DNA from: a virus
DNA length: 64,000 bases
Reading direction: 5' to 3' (one strand)
Virus record (IMG/VR): IMGVR_UViG_3300045902_000324
Location: 1-64,000 of that record
The notes beneath the pieces are model-generated. The model was not told the origin of the DNA. It saw only the letters and a list, made by a program, of their open reading frames with translations, and did not search any database. Position 1 is the first letter of the stretch, and each line of letters begins with the position of its first letter. A program made the position numbers and the translations under genes. Positions 566-63,996 of the stretch are shown one piece after another.

Positions 566-1122
566 ATCGCTGAAACCCTTGATTTTCCGTTACTAATATT
601 CTCTGTCTAGAGAACGTGTCATGACCTGTCATGACCTGTCATGGCTATTCGAGACAGCCACAACCCTTGCCACACAATGCTTTCAGCGACCTGTCATGCT
701 GTCTCGCGGTTTTCAGATAAAAAAACACGTTTAATTGGGGGAAACGGTGTCTGAAAGGCGTTTATTGATACGTATGTACTATCTCAAAAAGGCGCATAGA
801 AGAACTGGCAGCGGCATAGAAAGATAGAAAGGGCTTTCCACATATATTTCTATATTTCTCTTAGACGCCTTTCAGCACTAGTACATTTGAACCTGTGCCA
901 GTTTTAGCGTTACTGTTAGTACAAGTGTTTGGCTCATGTCATTTCACCCAATTAAACATGATTTTTTTTATGGAAACGGCGAGACAGCATGACAGGTCAC
1001 TTACACCCCATACACACCAATGCTTACAGCCTGTCTGAGGCACCCATGACAGGTCATGACAGGTCATGACAGTATCTCTGGCTGTAGAATATTGATAACG
1101 TATTTTCAAGGGTTTTAGGCAC
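566..1122. repeat. palindromic element 1 (TGTCATGACC inverted-repeat array)
   Basis: Gene-free block arranged as an imperfect large inverted repeat centred near 844. Paired segments: 573-582 with 1106-1115, 617-644 with 1044-1071 (three TGTCATGACC units against their reverse complement; both pairs sum to 1688), 688-707 with 979-998, and 731-739 with 947-955 (both sum to 1686). The basic unit TGTCATGACA is itself a palindrome. Flanks at 393-540 and 1140-1190 carry CCCAATTAA-type motifs. parB lies 0.2 kb away and is transcribed towards it. A replication origin, centromere or operator cluster is the most likely role (inference). Confidence 0.8.
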
Positions 1123-1335: not shown

Positions 1336-2445
1336 CTATTCTTCGAGCTGAGCAGCCTGGGCCGCCACCTCTAGGTGGTTAGCTCGAAAATCGTAGATAC
1401 CTTGACGAGCGCCGTACAACACCTCACCGATCACATGGGAGTCCGATGAACTAACCCCAACAAGCGATCGCCCTTCAGCGAACTTGTGGAGCGCTGCCAC
1501 CGCGTTCACTACAGCGTCAGCGAGTCTGCGTAGCTCTGGTGCATCGCTGTGGAACAGTGCCGTGTCCAACAAGTCCTGCTGCTGCCCGACCGACATAGCC
1601 TCGCGTTGCTGCATGGCGGTGAGGGCTGCTGTGAACTGGGTACCAGTGGACACCTTACCGGATTCCATTAGCGCCAGCATCTTAATCTGCTTGTCGTCGT
1701 CCAGCCTGGACATGAGCGACAGGCAGTAGGGCGAGATGCAGGAGGTCGTCTCGAACACCTGGCGGACATGGGCATGGACTCTAAACAAGTCCAGTCGTCC
1801 CGTCACCCACAGCACGCTCTTGCCGAGGGACGGCACGCCAAGTGCCTTGTCGCCCTTTGTTGCAGCTTTGATTGCTGTGGAGCGTGTTTCTTCGTCGTCT
1901 GAGAATGGCTCCAGACCGTAGGCTGTCATCCACCGCAGCAGTCCGTGAGCTTCTTCGGCAAACGTCATGTCCTTACGGCTAACGTTTTCAATGAACGCCA
2001 TAGTCTGCACGTCGCGGTCACTCAGCCCGGTGCGAACCTCAGCTCGGTACGTTGGCAGCTTGCCGAGCAAGCACGCTCTGAATCGCCGTTCGCCGTACAC
2101 CAGCATGTAGAGCGGCGTGGCGAGTTTCGTAGCGCGATCGCCCAGACCGTCGAGCGCTGCGGAGACAGTGGCAATCGATCGAACAAACAGCATGTCTGCG
2201 CCGACACCAGATTCGTTGTCTTGATCAACGCGCATTTGAAGGCGATCCAGCAAATCCCGTGCCTGCTCTACGGTCGTAACCTTTACCACAGCGCCGGGTG
2301 TATTCTGCCCGTTGCTGTTTATGTCATCAGCCAGTTCTTCTATCAGAGCTAAGTCAAAACTGCGACGGGGCTGGTTTGGGTTTGGGACGATAAACTCTGT
2401 GGGGATTGCGAGGACGGCGGAATCGGTTTTAATGCTGGTAGCCAT
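1336..2445 (-). CDS. parB: ParB-like partition protein
   Basis: A 369-residue ParB/Srx-fold protein. The N-terminus has the usual PNPNQPRR start of the ParB box region. The CTP-binding signature GERRFRA is at about residues 118-124 and ENVSRKDMTFAEEA at about 153-166, matching the GERR and ENxQR motifs of ParB. About 50 extra residues separate the first motif from GERR, longer than in chromosomal ParB. The remainder is helical and would hold the HTH and dimer domain. It should bind centromere-like sites in DNA; the adjacent element 1 is the obvious candidate (inference). No ParA is seen nearby. It has its own TTGACA/GACGAT promoter and a terminator, so it forms a monocistronic unit. Confidence 0.85.
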   Translation of the reverse strand: MATSIKTDSAVLAIPTEFIVPNPNQPRRSFDLALIEELADDINSNGQNTPGAVVKVTTVEQARDLLDRLQMRVDQDNESGVGADMLFVRSIATVSAALDGLGDRATKLATPLYMLVYGERRFRACLLGKLPTYRAEVRTGLSDRDVQTMAFIENVSRKDMTFAEEAHGLLRWMTAYGLEPFSDDEETRSTAIKAATKGDKALGVPSLGKSVLWVTGRLDLFRVHAHVRQVFETTSCISPYCLSLMSRLDDDKQIKMLALMESGKVSTGTQFTAALTAMQQREAMSVGQQQDLLDTALFHSDAPELRRLADAVVNAVAALHKFAEGRSLVGVSSSDSHVIGEVLYGARQGIYDFRANHLEVAAQAAQLEE

Positions 2446-3919: not shown

Positions 3920-3947
3920 ATCAGTCAATGTGCAACCCTCCAACGAC
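3920..3947. repeat. 28-bp perfect direct repeat, copy 2
   Basis: Second copy of the 2770-2797 sequence. Here it encodes the C-terminus (VVGGLHID) and stop codon of the upstream small gene. Confidence 0.9.
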
Positions 3948-20000: not shown

Positions 20001-20477
20001 CCTTCAGCGCCTACCGAGTACGCTGCGGATCTTACAGGGCAGGATTCGGGCCGATGTGGAACCCCATATTGGAGCCGGGTCAGCCCTGTTGGGGACGCTA
20101 GGGATAAGATTCGGGACTTACGGGGTAAAAGCCAGGACTTACCTGGAACCAGCATCTACCCACGAAGTCCCGGTTTTTGCCCGAAAAACGGTGCTCTGAT
20201 GCCTCAAAAAAATACGGGAGGCTTGAATGAACGGTGGAATGCGGCTTCCAGCGATCGTACATGCCTCCCTCAGCCCGCTATCGAGTATCGCAGCCTTTCG
20301 ACAGTTTTATACTTCTACGAACTCTAGTCCCACACCCAAGGGTTCGTGCCCCATCCTTGATCCACTCCCCGGTCTGAAGAGACGAGGCTACCAAGCTTCC
20401 CAACTATCCTGGTGTCGTAAATCGAAAAATCGTGGTTCATGCGTGGGTACGGGTAAAGTGTTCTGCAATCAAAAGCC
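20001..20477. repeat. non-coding region with dispersed repeat, copy A
   Basis: No credible gene in about 480 bases. Bases 20110-20161 (TCGGGACTTACGGGGTAAAA through AACCAGCATCTACC) recur with few changes at 24497-24547. A second shared block (GGAATGCGGCTTCCAGCG, from about 20231) has a diverged partner near 24696. Short ORFs here look like chance. Confidence 0.6.
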
Positions 20478-24369: not shown

Positions 24370-24744
24370 AAGCATAAATACTTAAAATGCTGGTTCCATT
24401 ATCTACCCACAAGGTTCCGATTCTTACCCTGCGGGAGCCGCCGTATACACTATCGGGTCTGGAACCCGCAGGGCAAAAACGAGTTCCAACCGAAAATCGG
24501 GACTCACGGGGTAAAAGTCGGGACTTAGCTGGAACCAGCATCTACCCTTTGAGTTCCACCATCTACCCAAAAGGTTCCGTTTCGGGACTTGCTGTGTAGA
24601 TCTGGGAGCCGCAGTCTACACACGAAGCCCCAATTTTTACCCAATTTTTGGCTGTTTTTGGGGTCAGATTTTCTGGCTGGGCGGGGGGAGACGATGGAAT
24701 GCGGGTTTCAGCCGTTTCACACGCCCTCCCAGGAGACACACACG
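24370..24744. repeat. non-coding region with dispersed repeat, copy B
   Basis: No credible gene. Bases 24497-24547 match 20110-20161; variants of ATCTACCC...GGTTCC recur within this stretch (24399-24420, 24540-24575). The region ends in a block (GGAATGCGGGTTTCAGCC, from about 24696) shared in diverged form with copy A. Confidence 0.6.
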
Positions 24745-49220: not shown

Positions 49221-49435
49221 TGCACAAGACAATCACCGTCGAATGGATTTTTCACGGACTGGCGATCGCCATGCTGCTGCGCGGGTTCTTCTCTGGAGCC
49301 GACATGATGCAGGAGGCTACCACAGCAGGGGTCATCATCGCGCTAGGTCGAGGATTGCCAACCGAAAAGGTTGACCATGTACTCGACAAGTACGACCGTC
49401 CAATCTTTCCTAGCGACCCACCGGATGACGCCTGA
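49220..49435 (+). CDS. possible holin or lysis accessory
   Basis: 71 residues coupled to the endolysin stop (TGATG). One or two moderately hydrophobic segments (WIFHGLAIAMLLRGFF, TTAGVIIALG) and an acidic tail. Context suggests a holin-type role, but the membrane segments are weak. Confidence 0.45.
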   Translation: MHKTITVEWIFHGLAIAMLLRGFFSGADMMQEATTAGVIIALGRGLPTEKVDHVLDKYDRPIFPSDPPDDA

Positions 49436-49536
49436 ATCCAATTGGGAGAAATCCATTTTTAATTGGGAGAAATGCCAATAGCCAGGCATGACAGACCACA
49501 CTGTCAGCACGAATGACACACCCAATGACAGCCTAA

Positions 49537-49564
49537 AACCCTTGCCCACCAAGGGTTGTTTTTT
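49537..49564 (+). terminator. terminator of lysis genes, inside element 2
   Basis: AACCCTT / AAGGGTT stem followed by GTTTTTT. Mirrors the minus-strand terminator at 50036-50066. Confidence 0.75.
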
Positions 49565-50035
49565 ATCTGTCGAGAGTATCTGTCATGACCTGTCATGGTG
49601 CTGTCAGAGCGTGTCAGACAGGCTGGAAGTATTGATATATATAGCGTTTGGCGACCTGTCATGACTGTCTCGCAGTTTCACAATAAAGAAACGTGTAAAA
49701 AACGGCTGAAACAGGAGGAAAAGGGTTCAAATGTACTATCGCTGAGAGGGTCTGAGGTGCTGGCGGAAGCATCGGGAAACATAGAGGTGTCCACAGTCAA
49801 AAGAAAAGTGGAATGGAAAAGCCTTTCATATATTTCTCTAATTCTCTAGACCCATTTTTGAGTAGTACATTTGTATTTTTTATCCCTCTTTTAGCCCTCT
49901 CAGACACTATTTTTTTATTGCAAATGGGCGAGACAGTCATGACATGTGTCTCAACCCCTTGTGTGGTAACGGTTGTAGCCTGTCTGACTAGCTCGGACAC
50001 ACCCATGACAGGTCATGACAGATACTTTTTTGGAA

Positions 50036-50066
50036 TAAAAAAGAACCCTTGTATATCAAGGGTTCT
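50036..50066 (-). terminator. terminator of radC transcript, inside element 2
   Basis: Minus strand GAACCCTTG / CAAGGGTTC stem followed by TTTTTT. With its mirror copy it would stop both converging transcripts before the core of element 2. Confidence 0.8.
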
Positions 50067-50165
50067 AGCTGTCTCGCTCGTATGATGCGTGGTCTGACGG
50101 GTCTGCCTGTCACGCCTCTGTCAGGGCATTTCTCCCAATTAAAATCATATTTCTCCCAATTGGTT

Positions 50166-50864
50166 TTACTTGTTCCACAGATCTGCCTTTTCCTGTCTGA
50201 AGCTGTAAAACGTGTTTGCGCCAACTACGATGTGATCGAGCACTGGCAGATGCATTACCTTTGCTGCATCTAACATACGTTTTGTCAGTTCCACATCCTG
50301 TGGAGACGGGTCAGGGTTGCCAGAAGGGTGATTGTGCGCGATAACGCAGGACGCGCCGTTAGCCGATATAACAGCCTTAAACACTTGCTGGGGCGTGACA
50401 ATGCACTCATCAACCGATCCTTGGCTGACTGTTTTTATCGAGATCACGTCGTATTTTGTAGTCAATACGATAACCACGAGTTTTTCTGTGGTTGCGTGCG
50501 CCAGATCGTATTTGAGTAGCGCGTAAATCGATTCTGGGTTGTTGATCCTGATTTTTCCGGGGCTTGCAAGAAAAACCCGTTTTCCAAATTCTGTAGCAGC
50601 AAGTAGCCTAGTGGCCTGAGCGCCCGTTAAGCCCGCTGTGGTCAGCTCGTAGTGGGATGAGTTGCGGAAGCGTGCCCACGCCTGTTCCTGGTCGAATAAC
50701 CCAACGTTCAAGCAGATATTTTCGACGACAGAGGTTGCCGTTTCCACAGTGCAGCCAACAACGGCTGAAATTAGCTCTGCGATCGCCGTAGCCTGCGGTT
50801 CATGTTGGACACGCAAGGTCGTCCACTGGGACTGCGATGAATCTGCGACTCTCCAAAATGACAT
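50166..50864 (-). CDS. radC: RadC-like JAB-domain protein
   Basis: 232 residues from ATG 50864 with AGGAG 8 nt upstream; the ORF start at 50978 crosses the upstream terminator. C-terminal RadC/JAB domain with AHNHPSGNPDPSPQD (HxH ... S ... D) and VLDHIVVGANTFYSF. The N-terminal half is helical. Common on mobile elements; proposed recombination or antirestriction role, biochemical function unsettled. Confidence 0.85.
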   Translation of the reverse strand: MSFWRVADSSQSQWTTLRVQHEPQATAIAELISAVVGCTVETATSVVENICLNVGLFDQEQAWARFRNSSHYELTTAGLTGAQATRLLAATEFGKRVFLASPGKIRINNPESIYALLKYDLAHATTEKLVVIVLTTKYDVISIKTVSQGSVDECIVTPQQVFKAVISANGASCVIAHNHPSGNPDPSPQDVELTKRMLDAAKVMHLPVLDHIVVGANTFYSFRQEKADLWNK

Positions 50865-51680: not shown

Positions 51681-52934
51681 ATGATGACACGCAGAGTTAC
51701 CTTTAGGCTGTATCCATCTGAAGCGCAAACGGCAAAGCTGTTTGAGGCTCGGAGGCTTCACGCCTATCTCTATAACGCTTGCGTTGAGCATCGTAAAACG
51801 AGCTATCAGAAGTTTGGCAAGTCCATCAGCTATTTTGATCAGCAAGCCGCGCTTGTACCGTTTAAGGCTGATTGGCAGGAGTATAGAGCGCTCAATCATG
51901 GCTCATTGCAAGCCACAGTGAAGCGGGTTGATTTTGCCTTCCAGCGCTTTTTCAAAGGACTGGGTGGGTATCCCAAGTTTCAAGCGATTCGCCGTTACTC
52001 TGGCTGGACATACCCTGATGCCCGTCAAGGCTTTAAGGTGCATTCAGACGGCAAGAATGGATACTTGGAATTGCGGGATCTAGGGCTAAAGCTCCAGATG
52101 CGAGGGCAAGCGCGAACTTGGGGCGCTCCCACGACTTGCACAATTGTCTATCGTAACGGGCTATGGTTTGCCAGCATCACGGTAAATTGCGAGGTTGCGC
52201 GCAAAACCGGCAATGGCGCGGTAGGAATCGATTTTGGCGTACTGACGGCTGCGGCATTGTCAAATGGAACCAAGATCGAAAACCCGCGCTTCATTGCCAA
52301 AACGCAAGCCAAGGTTCGCAAAGCAAGCAAGGCAAAGCGTCGCAAGCGCTCACCCAATCTCAAGCAAAAAGTTAAAGCGTCAAAACGATGGAGGAAAGCG
52401 TCTAAGCGGGTATCAAAGCTGCAACGCAAAGTTGCAAATCAGCGGCAGAACTGGGTACATCAAGTCTCTACACAGATAGTCAGCAGTAATAGCTTGGTAG
52501 CGACTGAAAAGTTAAACCTCAAAGGGATGACTCGCAAGGCGAGGAAAGGAAAACGCAAGGCGCAAAAGTCAGGGCTAAACCGCTCCATTCTGGATGTTGG
52601 GATGGGGATGTTGCGCGCTGCGATTGCGTATAAGTTGGCGGAAGCAGGGGGTTTCTTTGTGGAGGTGCCGACGCTCACGGTTAAGCCTTCTCAGACTTGC
52701 CCCAGTTGTGGTCATCAGGAGAAAAAACCACTTGAGCAGCGAGTGCATCATTGCCAGCAATGCGGTTATGTGGAGGATAGAGATGTGGCGGCTGCTCAAG
52801 TCATGCTCAATTGGGCACGGGGTAAGGAACTTGCCTCGTCAAACGTGGATGGGTCTGGCTCTACTGACTGCGGAAGCATGAAGCAACTAGCCCAAACGAA
52901 GCGTCAGAAACTCCTAGCTCAGCGAAGCGGCTAG
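51681..52934 (+). CDS. tnpB: RNA-guided nuclease TnpB
   Basis: 417 residues. N-terminal HTH (MTRRVTFRLYPSEAQTAKLF), RuvC-like catalytic residues in AVGIDFGVL (Asp about 183), VATEKLNLKGM (Glu about 276) and VEDRDVAAAQVM (Asp about 369), plus a zinc ribbon CPSCG ... CQQCG. All catalytic positions intact. The guide omega-RNA would come from the 3' end of the gene and the right hairpin. Confidence 0.9.
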   Translation: MMTRRVTFRLYPSEAQTAKLFEARRLHAYLYNACVEHRKTSYQKFGKSISYFDQQAALVPFKADWQEYRALNHGSLQATVKRVDFAFQRFFKGLGGYPKFQAIRRYSGWTYPDARQGFKVHSDGKNGYLELRDLGLKLQMRGQARTWGAPTTCTIVYRNGLWFASITVNCEVARKTGNGAVGIDFGVLTAAALSNGTKIENPRFIAKTQAKVRKASKAKRRKRSPNLKQKVKASKRWRKASKRVSKLQRKVANQRQNWVHQVSTQIVSSNSLVATEKLNLKGMTRKARKGKRKAQKSGLNRSILDVGMGMLRAAIAYKLAEAGGFFVEVPTLTVKPSQTCPSCGHQEKKPLEQRVHHCQQCGYVEDRDVAAAQVMLNWARGKELASSNVDGSGSTDCGSMKQLAQTKRQKLLAQRSG

Positions 52935-63350: not shown

Positions 63351-63378
63351 AGTGTAGTATGTGCTTCTAGGAGTTCCC

Positions 63379-63996
63379 TTGTTAGAAAACCTTATTAAAA
63401 AGCTGTCCGATCATGTGGGCGGAGAGAGAGCTTTATCAAGATTGTCTGGAATATCGAAGTCCAGTTTGTCCAAGATAGCAACCGGGGAGTCCGATAAGCT
63501 CTCCCCGGAAAACCTGATAAGACTTGCTGAGACTACTCAACACTTGCTGGCAGACGGAAACCCTTTGCGAGATGAGATGGGACGAGATGTAGTCTACAGC
63601 GAGATCGAATTGATAGGGTTGGCATTTGGACTAGCGACGCCTCCCACACCAGTGGACTTATCCCCTGTAGCCGCATTCATTCGTGGAATACTTGCAGCAC
63701 ACGGGTACAATCCCTTTCAAAAATCTACTCTCGGTGCCGGAATTGACTGGTTCTTGGGACATTGTGCATTGTCAAAACTAACACCGGAAGTTAAAGAACA
63801 AAGAACGCAAACAATCCGGCTGTTGATTCGAGGCGATATCCGTATCGAACCGACCGACCCGATCTTGACTACTATCTCCAGAGCGATTAGCAAAATCGAC
63901 GGAGTGCCGTCAATTACCCCACTCATGCTACGGTCGATGCTGACGGACTCGCCCACAGAGGTCGAGCATGTGGACGAGCCTTGCCTAACACATTAA
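63379..63996 (+). CDS. XRE-type repressor-like regulator
   Basis: 205 residues from TTG 63379, which has AGGAG 5-6 nt upstream (the GTG at 63361 has none). N-terminal HTH (ALSRLSGISKSSLSKIATG ... ENLIRLAETTQ). No LexA-type protease motif seen in the rest, so control by an antirepressor such as the 24793 product is conceivable. Divergent from the early promoter at 63253. Confidence 0.7.
   Translation: MLENLIKKLSDHVGGERALSRLSGISKSSLSKIATGESDKLSPENLIRLAETTQHLLADGNPLRDEMGRDVVYSEIELIGLAFGLATPPTPVDLSPVAAFIRGILAAHGYNPFQKSTLGAGIDWFLGHCALSKLTPEVKEQRTQTIRLLIRGDIRIEPTDPILTTISRAISKIDGVPSITPLMLRSMLTDSPTEVEHVDEPCLTH

Follow-up and report, generated by a model that had tools for sequence, protein, structure and literature searches.

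The genome of phage SPP1 has two related origins, oriL and oriR, each composed of repeats to which one phage initiator binds, plus an AT-rich unwinding element (DUE) (PMC6316719). oriR is located within a segment bracketed by transcription signals (PMC6316719), and replication has been proposed either to begin at both origins or to begin at one, the other being where forks meet or stall. The hrs of baculoviruses are dispersed AT-rich elements made up of imperfect palindromes, and were first postulated to be origins because they are symmetrically placed, AT-rich and palindromic (PMC6669502). Centromeres of the parS, sopC and OB kinds consist of short inverted repeats close to a parB gene, and sites of the SopC and OB types can lie dispersed over a genome (PMC5016525). 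Little is known of how large cyanosiphophages start replication or maintain a low-copy genome.

Two elements in a phage genome from IMG/VR, here called elements 1 and 2, recall each of these systems. Like oriL and oriR they are two related sites in one phage genome, with repeats beside an AT-rich centre; the SPP1 repeats, however, are direct and form no long mirror array, the SPP1 origins are only about 13 kb apart and their initiator, gp38, is known. The hrs consist of imperfect palindromes of ~30 bp, whereas each element here forms a single palindrome, 550-730 bp long, whose boxes are ordered, and the likeness implies no common descent. In contrast to the parS, sopC and OB centromeres, the elements have longer mirrored arms and an unstable centre, the second lies far from parB and no ParA was found in the genome. 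We favour an origin-like reading first and a centromere reading second.

Two long palindromes and their shared boxes

The window analysed comprises bases 1-64000 of the 97,462-bp IMG/VR record IMGVR_UViG_3300045902_000324; the rest of the record was analysed as two further loci. The record lacks end repeats, and one minus-strand ORF spans its end-to-start join (97198-97462 into 1-343) with the frame kept; as the reading frame is unbroken across the join, the genome is probably circular and the record probably a complete circle. The 93 copies of HIP1 (GCGATCGC) in 97 kb point to a cyanobacterial host.

Element 1 (566-1122) is a long imperfect palindrome centred on 844, situated between the minus-strand gene at 1-343 and a parB gene, also on the minus strand. 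Its left arm (570-744, plus strand) is mirrored by its right arm (942-1118, minus strand), as found by inverted-repeat search and by alignment of all four arms of the two elements; as inverted repeats the arms are 73% identical (E 5e-21), and the palindrome scores 101 bits. The left arm contains a tandem GTCATGAC array with a 10-bp pitch (TGTCATGACCTGTCATGACCTGTCATG) at 617-643 (plus), within which TGTCATGACC is repeated in tandem at 617/627, and the mirror copy of the array is at 1045-1072 (minus). The box GACCTGTCATG-CTGTCTCGC occurs at 688-707 (plus) and 980-999 (minus), and AATTGGGNGAAA at 733 and 942. The initial annotation had described mirrored arms around 844 carrying the same units in mirrored order, and both statements are borne out by these positions. 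The low-stability centre (815-874) coincides with the symmetry axis and belongs to the lowest 0.3% of 60-bp windows; by 100-bp windows it is within the lowest 0.4% of the genome.

Element 2 (49435-50166) is also a long imperfect palindrome and occupies the junction between converging M15 peptidase and radC genes. Its arms (49435-49738, plus; 49863-50166, minus), found by inverted-repeat search, are 71% identical as inverted repeats (E 8e-32), with a palindrome score of 136 bits. An array of TGTCATGACCTGTCATG at 49581-49597 (plus) is mirrored at 50004-50021 (minus), and a box GACCTGTCATGACTGTCTCGC at 49653-49673 (plus) recurs with two mismatches at 49928-49948 (minus). A CAAATGTACTA box lies at 49728-49738 (plus) and again at 49863-49873 (minus), with a further copy in element 1 at 879-889 (minus). 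No 100-bp window in the 97-kb genome is less stable than the centre (49825-49924), a candidate unwinding element. Intrinsic-terminator-like hairpins are predicted at 49537-49557 (plus) and 50042-50066 (minus), which would stop transcription entering from the left and from the right, respectively. Since it is a convergent junction between two inward-stopping terminators, element 2 is not a promoter region. In a near-identical second contig, IMGVR_UViG_3300044961_000417, element 2 is identical and the sequence is collinear across it.

On the circle the two elements are separated by 48,956 and 48,506 bp, and are thus almost antipodal; two random points would fall so near to opposite with a chance of ~0.5%, although the placement was noticed post hoc. 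The virion genes, from terminase to tail fibre, do lie between them as originally proposed, together with other genes.

Both elements are genuine long imperfect palindromes, far beyond chance. Folding as single-stranded DNA, compared with dinucleotide shuffles, gives z of about -16.5 for each of them, ten simulated 97-kb genomes gave local palindromes of at most 52 bits, below both, and the whole 97-kb record contains no long local palindromes other than these two. The initial annotation had taken them to be related, and alignment confirms it: from the outside to the centre, the boxes of all four arms, and their order, are the same. Outermost is AAACCCTTG (AGAACCCTTG in one arm), then TGTCATGACCTGTCATG, with one extra 10-bp unit in element 1, then GACAGGCT or a close variant, then GACCTGTCATG-(A)CTGTCTCGC, and innermost an A-rich stretch followed by TGTACTA. 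Invariant runs of 17, 16, 8, 8 and 7 columns stand out in the alignment, and none of 5,000 column shufflings gave a 17-column run. As overall likeness among the arms is only 71-78%, invariant boxes within such diverged arms fit selection on putative protein-binding boxes better than they fit recent copying.

The boxes are largely confined to the elements, in or just beside which are found 8 of the 10 GTCATGAC sites and all seven exact AATTGGGNGAAA sites of the 97-kb genome. Whereas element 1 has AATTGGGNGAAA in its interior, element 2 has it in duplicate at its outer ends, and therefore the boxes appear to move as modules. No Rfam family matched the elements, and no copy of element 1 was found in phages or of element 2 in plasmids. 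A scan for the box pattern gave four matches in bacterial genomes, in unrelated taxa and presumed to be chance, and in IMG/VR only the sister record.

Palindromic elements of phage Mic1 and other comparisons

Microcystis phage Mic1 (MN013189) has long palindromic intergenic elements with AT-rich centres at four loci. These are found between convergent, divergent and co-directional genes, and because they occupy junctions of all orientations a promoter role is disfavoured. They resemble elements 1 and 2 in that the palindromes are long and dispersed, the centres AT-rich and the arms conserved and furnished with boxes, but differ in number of loci and in their copies being about 80-94% alike. 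The two phages have essentially only a TnpB-type protein in common, and overall DNA similarity between the Mic1 elements and elements 1 and 2 is not significant; TGTACTA and AAACCCTTGA are nevertheless conserved in the arms of both beyond shuffled expectation. The passages of PMC7156551 consulted make no mention of the Mic1 elements. As far as the literature was searched, then, the statement that no cyanophage element of this form had been described still stands, but the form itself is not peculiar to the present phage, as Mic1 carries analogous elements for which we found no description.

In uncultivated relatives of Mic1 the elements are kept at matching sites, where arm boxes such as TTTGTACTATGTAGT and AAATCAATAAAACTCA are retained while the centres vary. 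In several related contigs (L034, L039, L043, L044, L048, L049 and L050) junctions indicate an inversion of ~66 kb compared with Mic1, broken within the palindromic elements, and two Mic1-related contigs show both reciprocal junctions.

Among the phages sampled, Cylindrospermopsis virus CrV-01T has most proteins in common with the present phage (lambda-like tail module, helicase, ParB-like). In the CrV-01T record one block of genes appears in the annotation both at 71972-82805 and at 93120-103953, the two copies being inverted relative to each other. A long local palindrome was absent from the controls 2AV2, N-1 (first 50 kb), RHph_N28_2, RcMenchie, CrV-01T and PaV-LD. Leptolyngbya phage Lbo402-yong5 has a dispersed 55-bp intergenic repeat at about eight places, some forming inverted pairs, but without an unstable centre; this is a different thing, and a caution that intergenic inverted repeat pairs are not unique.

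Origins, centromeres and other explanations

The leading explanation, which we hold tentatively, is that elements 1 and 2 may be paired replication-origin-like sites in which inverted arrays resembling initiator-binding sites surround an unwinding element. The initial annotation had suggested either a two-origin system or a paired centromere, and of these the origin half is favoured by the architecture: inverted box arrays, centres among the least stable DNA of the genome, two copies, the insulation of element 2 from transcription and the recurrence of the design in Mic1. The near-absence of the boxes elsewhere in the genome also counts in its favour, as do the invariant runs in the four-arm alignment, the near-antipodal placement on a probable circle, the conserved arm boxes beside variable centres in relatives of Mic1 and the precedent of SPP1. 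From the anatomy, conservation and calculated duplex stability of the elements we infer that proteins bind there and that replication may start there. A phage-encoded protein would bind the mirrored boxes from both sides and open the AT-rich centre, on which the phage's own replication machinery could then be loaded; the genome encodes a PolA-type polymerase, a DUF3987 primase/helicase-like protein, helicases and a sliding clamp. Forks might set out from both elements, or from one only, with the other as the place where they meet or stall.

Other features weigh against this reading. After correction for gene direction, the GC skew at third positions reveals no switch of strands at either element, a sign that in a mosaic phage genome is too weak to be decisive, and a GC-skew model of origin and terminus was unsupported, with no significant half-genome effect. 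The genome has no recognisable initiator gene, Rep_3 being absent, although several of its proteins are unassigned, and the elements have no good cluster of DnaA boxes; the centre of element 1 contains one DnaA-like site with one mismatch, of a kind frequent genome-wide. An AT-rich centre is nothing unusual in intergenic DNA, several sites elsewhere in the genome are almost as unstable as the element centres, and arms of 180-300 bp exceed by far those of most phage origins. For a direct test of conservation of both elements, the collections contained no close relatives, and IMG/VR gave only one near-identical contig.

The other half of the original proposal, that the elements are parS-like centromere arrays, begins from the gene next to element 1. 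This gene (1336-2445, minus strand) encodes a ParB family protein of 369 aa with a ParB_N domain, the usual GERRFRA and ENVSRKDMT motifs and an HTH-like region, and its 3' end is 214 bp from element 1. The protein would bind CATGACCTGTCATG inverted repeats in both elements, either to partition a plasmid-like prophage or as a regulator. Element 1 lies downstream of parB, as do P1 parS and F sopC, and the arms hold 14-bp inverted repeats, a parS-like length. The array had been described as standing beside a ParB gene, which is true of element 1 but not of element 2, located between the M15 peptidase and radC genes with no parB next to it. No match to the ParA family (AAA_31) was found in the genome, though all 14 control genomes were positive, and neither arms of 180-300 bp nor an unstable centre are needed by a parS. 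Three further ParB-domain or related genes are located elsewhere in the genome, and an alternative route to partition is at hand in a ParM/StbA-like actin-type gene (record 74511-76000, minus strand; phrog_691; 28% to Oscillatoria plasmid ParM/StbA). Directly downstream of it is a 105-aa ORF, a ParR candidate, and just upstream are two 18-bp direct repeats with 21-bp spacing, so this locus at about 75 kb is a possible second partition locus and may be the one that does the segregating. Lacking both a ParA and a second parB neighbour, the centromere half is in our view rather unlikely. Nor do the elements fit the centromere of a ParMRC system, whose parC repeats adjoin the parM/parR operon: the ParM-like gene has its own upstream repeats and GTCATGAC is absent there.

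Three further explanations are less probable again. One is that a phage repressor or sigma factor would act on the elements as on symmetric arrays of operators or enhancers: tandem palindromes at a 10-bp pitch resemble operators, and the phage has genes for an HTH_3 protein (63361-63996) and for a sigma-70 region-4 protein. Control of transcription is improbable, however, for a site such as element 2, in a convergent junction behind two terminators; promoter-like matches are not clearly above chance, the boxes are scarce elsewhere in the genome, and the Mic1 elements respect no particular gene orientation. Recombination or inversion sites that switch the arrangement of the genome would account for the breakpoints inside the elements of the Mic1 relatives, yet those junctions could partly be assembly choices, or the inversion a by-product of another function. 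In the present phage, homologous recombination between arms that have diverged this far would not be easy and the sister contig stays collinear through element 2, and we regard such a switch as very unlikely. The least probable explanation is that the elements are fold-back repeats, mobile or selfish, which multiplied inside the genome. Two dispersed copies, the 80-94% likeness of the Mic1 copies, some with duplicated arms, and an IS605-type TnpB gene 1.5 kb from element 2 would suit it. Long invariant boxes in arms of such low overall likeness would not, nor would the different outer modules of the two elements (AATTGGGNGAAA placement), the failure to find element 1 in phages or element 2 in plasmids, the restriction of the box pattern in IMG/VR to the sister record or the matching sites held in Mic1 relatives. 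Hairpin telomeres of the N15 type are short, near-perfect palindromes with a symmetric centre, and this candidate was rejected: the arms are imperfect (71-73% complementary) and the asymmetric centre exceeds 100 bp. No protelomerase gene was seen among the ORF proteins scanned, a subset of all ORFs.

If the elements are origins, they would provide a testable start site for replication and a binding site that could serve as bait for the initiator, and would exemplify a two-origin layout of a kind rarely described in phages. Mic1 is an isolated phage with parallel elements, so the idea is open to laboratory testing. A broader and more doubtful proposal is that certain cyanobacterial siphophages have independently adopted large, dispersed mirror arrays, which would act both as multiple origins of replication and as inversion points, a phage counterpart of the baculovirus hrs that would allow two-origin replication and genome isomers.

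Other repeats and genes of the genome

An exact 28-nt direct repeat (2770-2797 and 3920-3947) flanks a PAPS-reductase-like gene. Direct repeats of 76 nt at 20111-20186 and 24497-24572, 79% alike, contain CTGGAACCAG, a sequence shared with the upstream repeats of the ParM-like gene. There are two TnpB-like (OrfB_IS605) genes, at 51681-52934 and at record 79660-81054. At record 95777-97179 a gene for a TET-associated-type glycosyltransferase, perhaps tied to modified bases, adjoins a ParB-domain gene.
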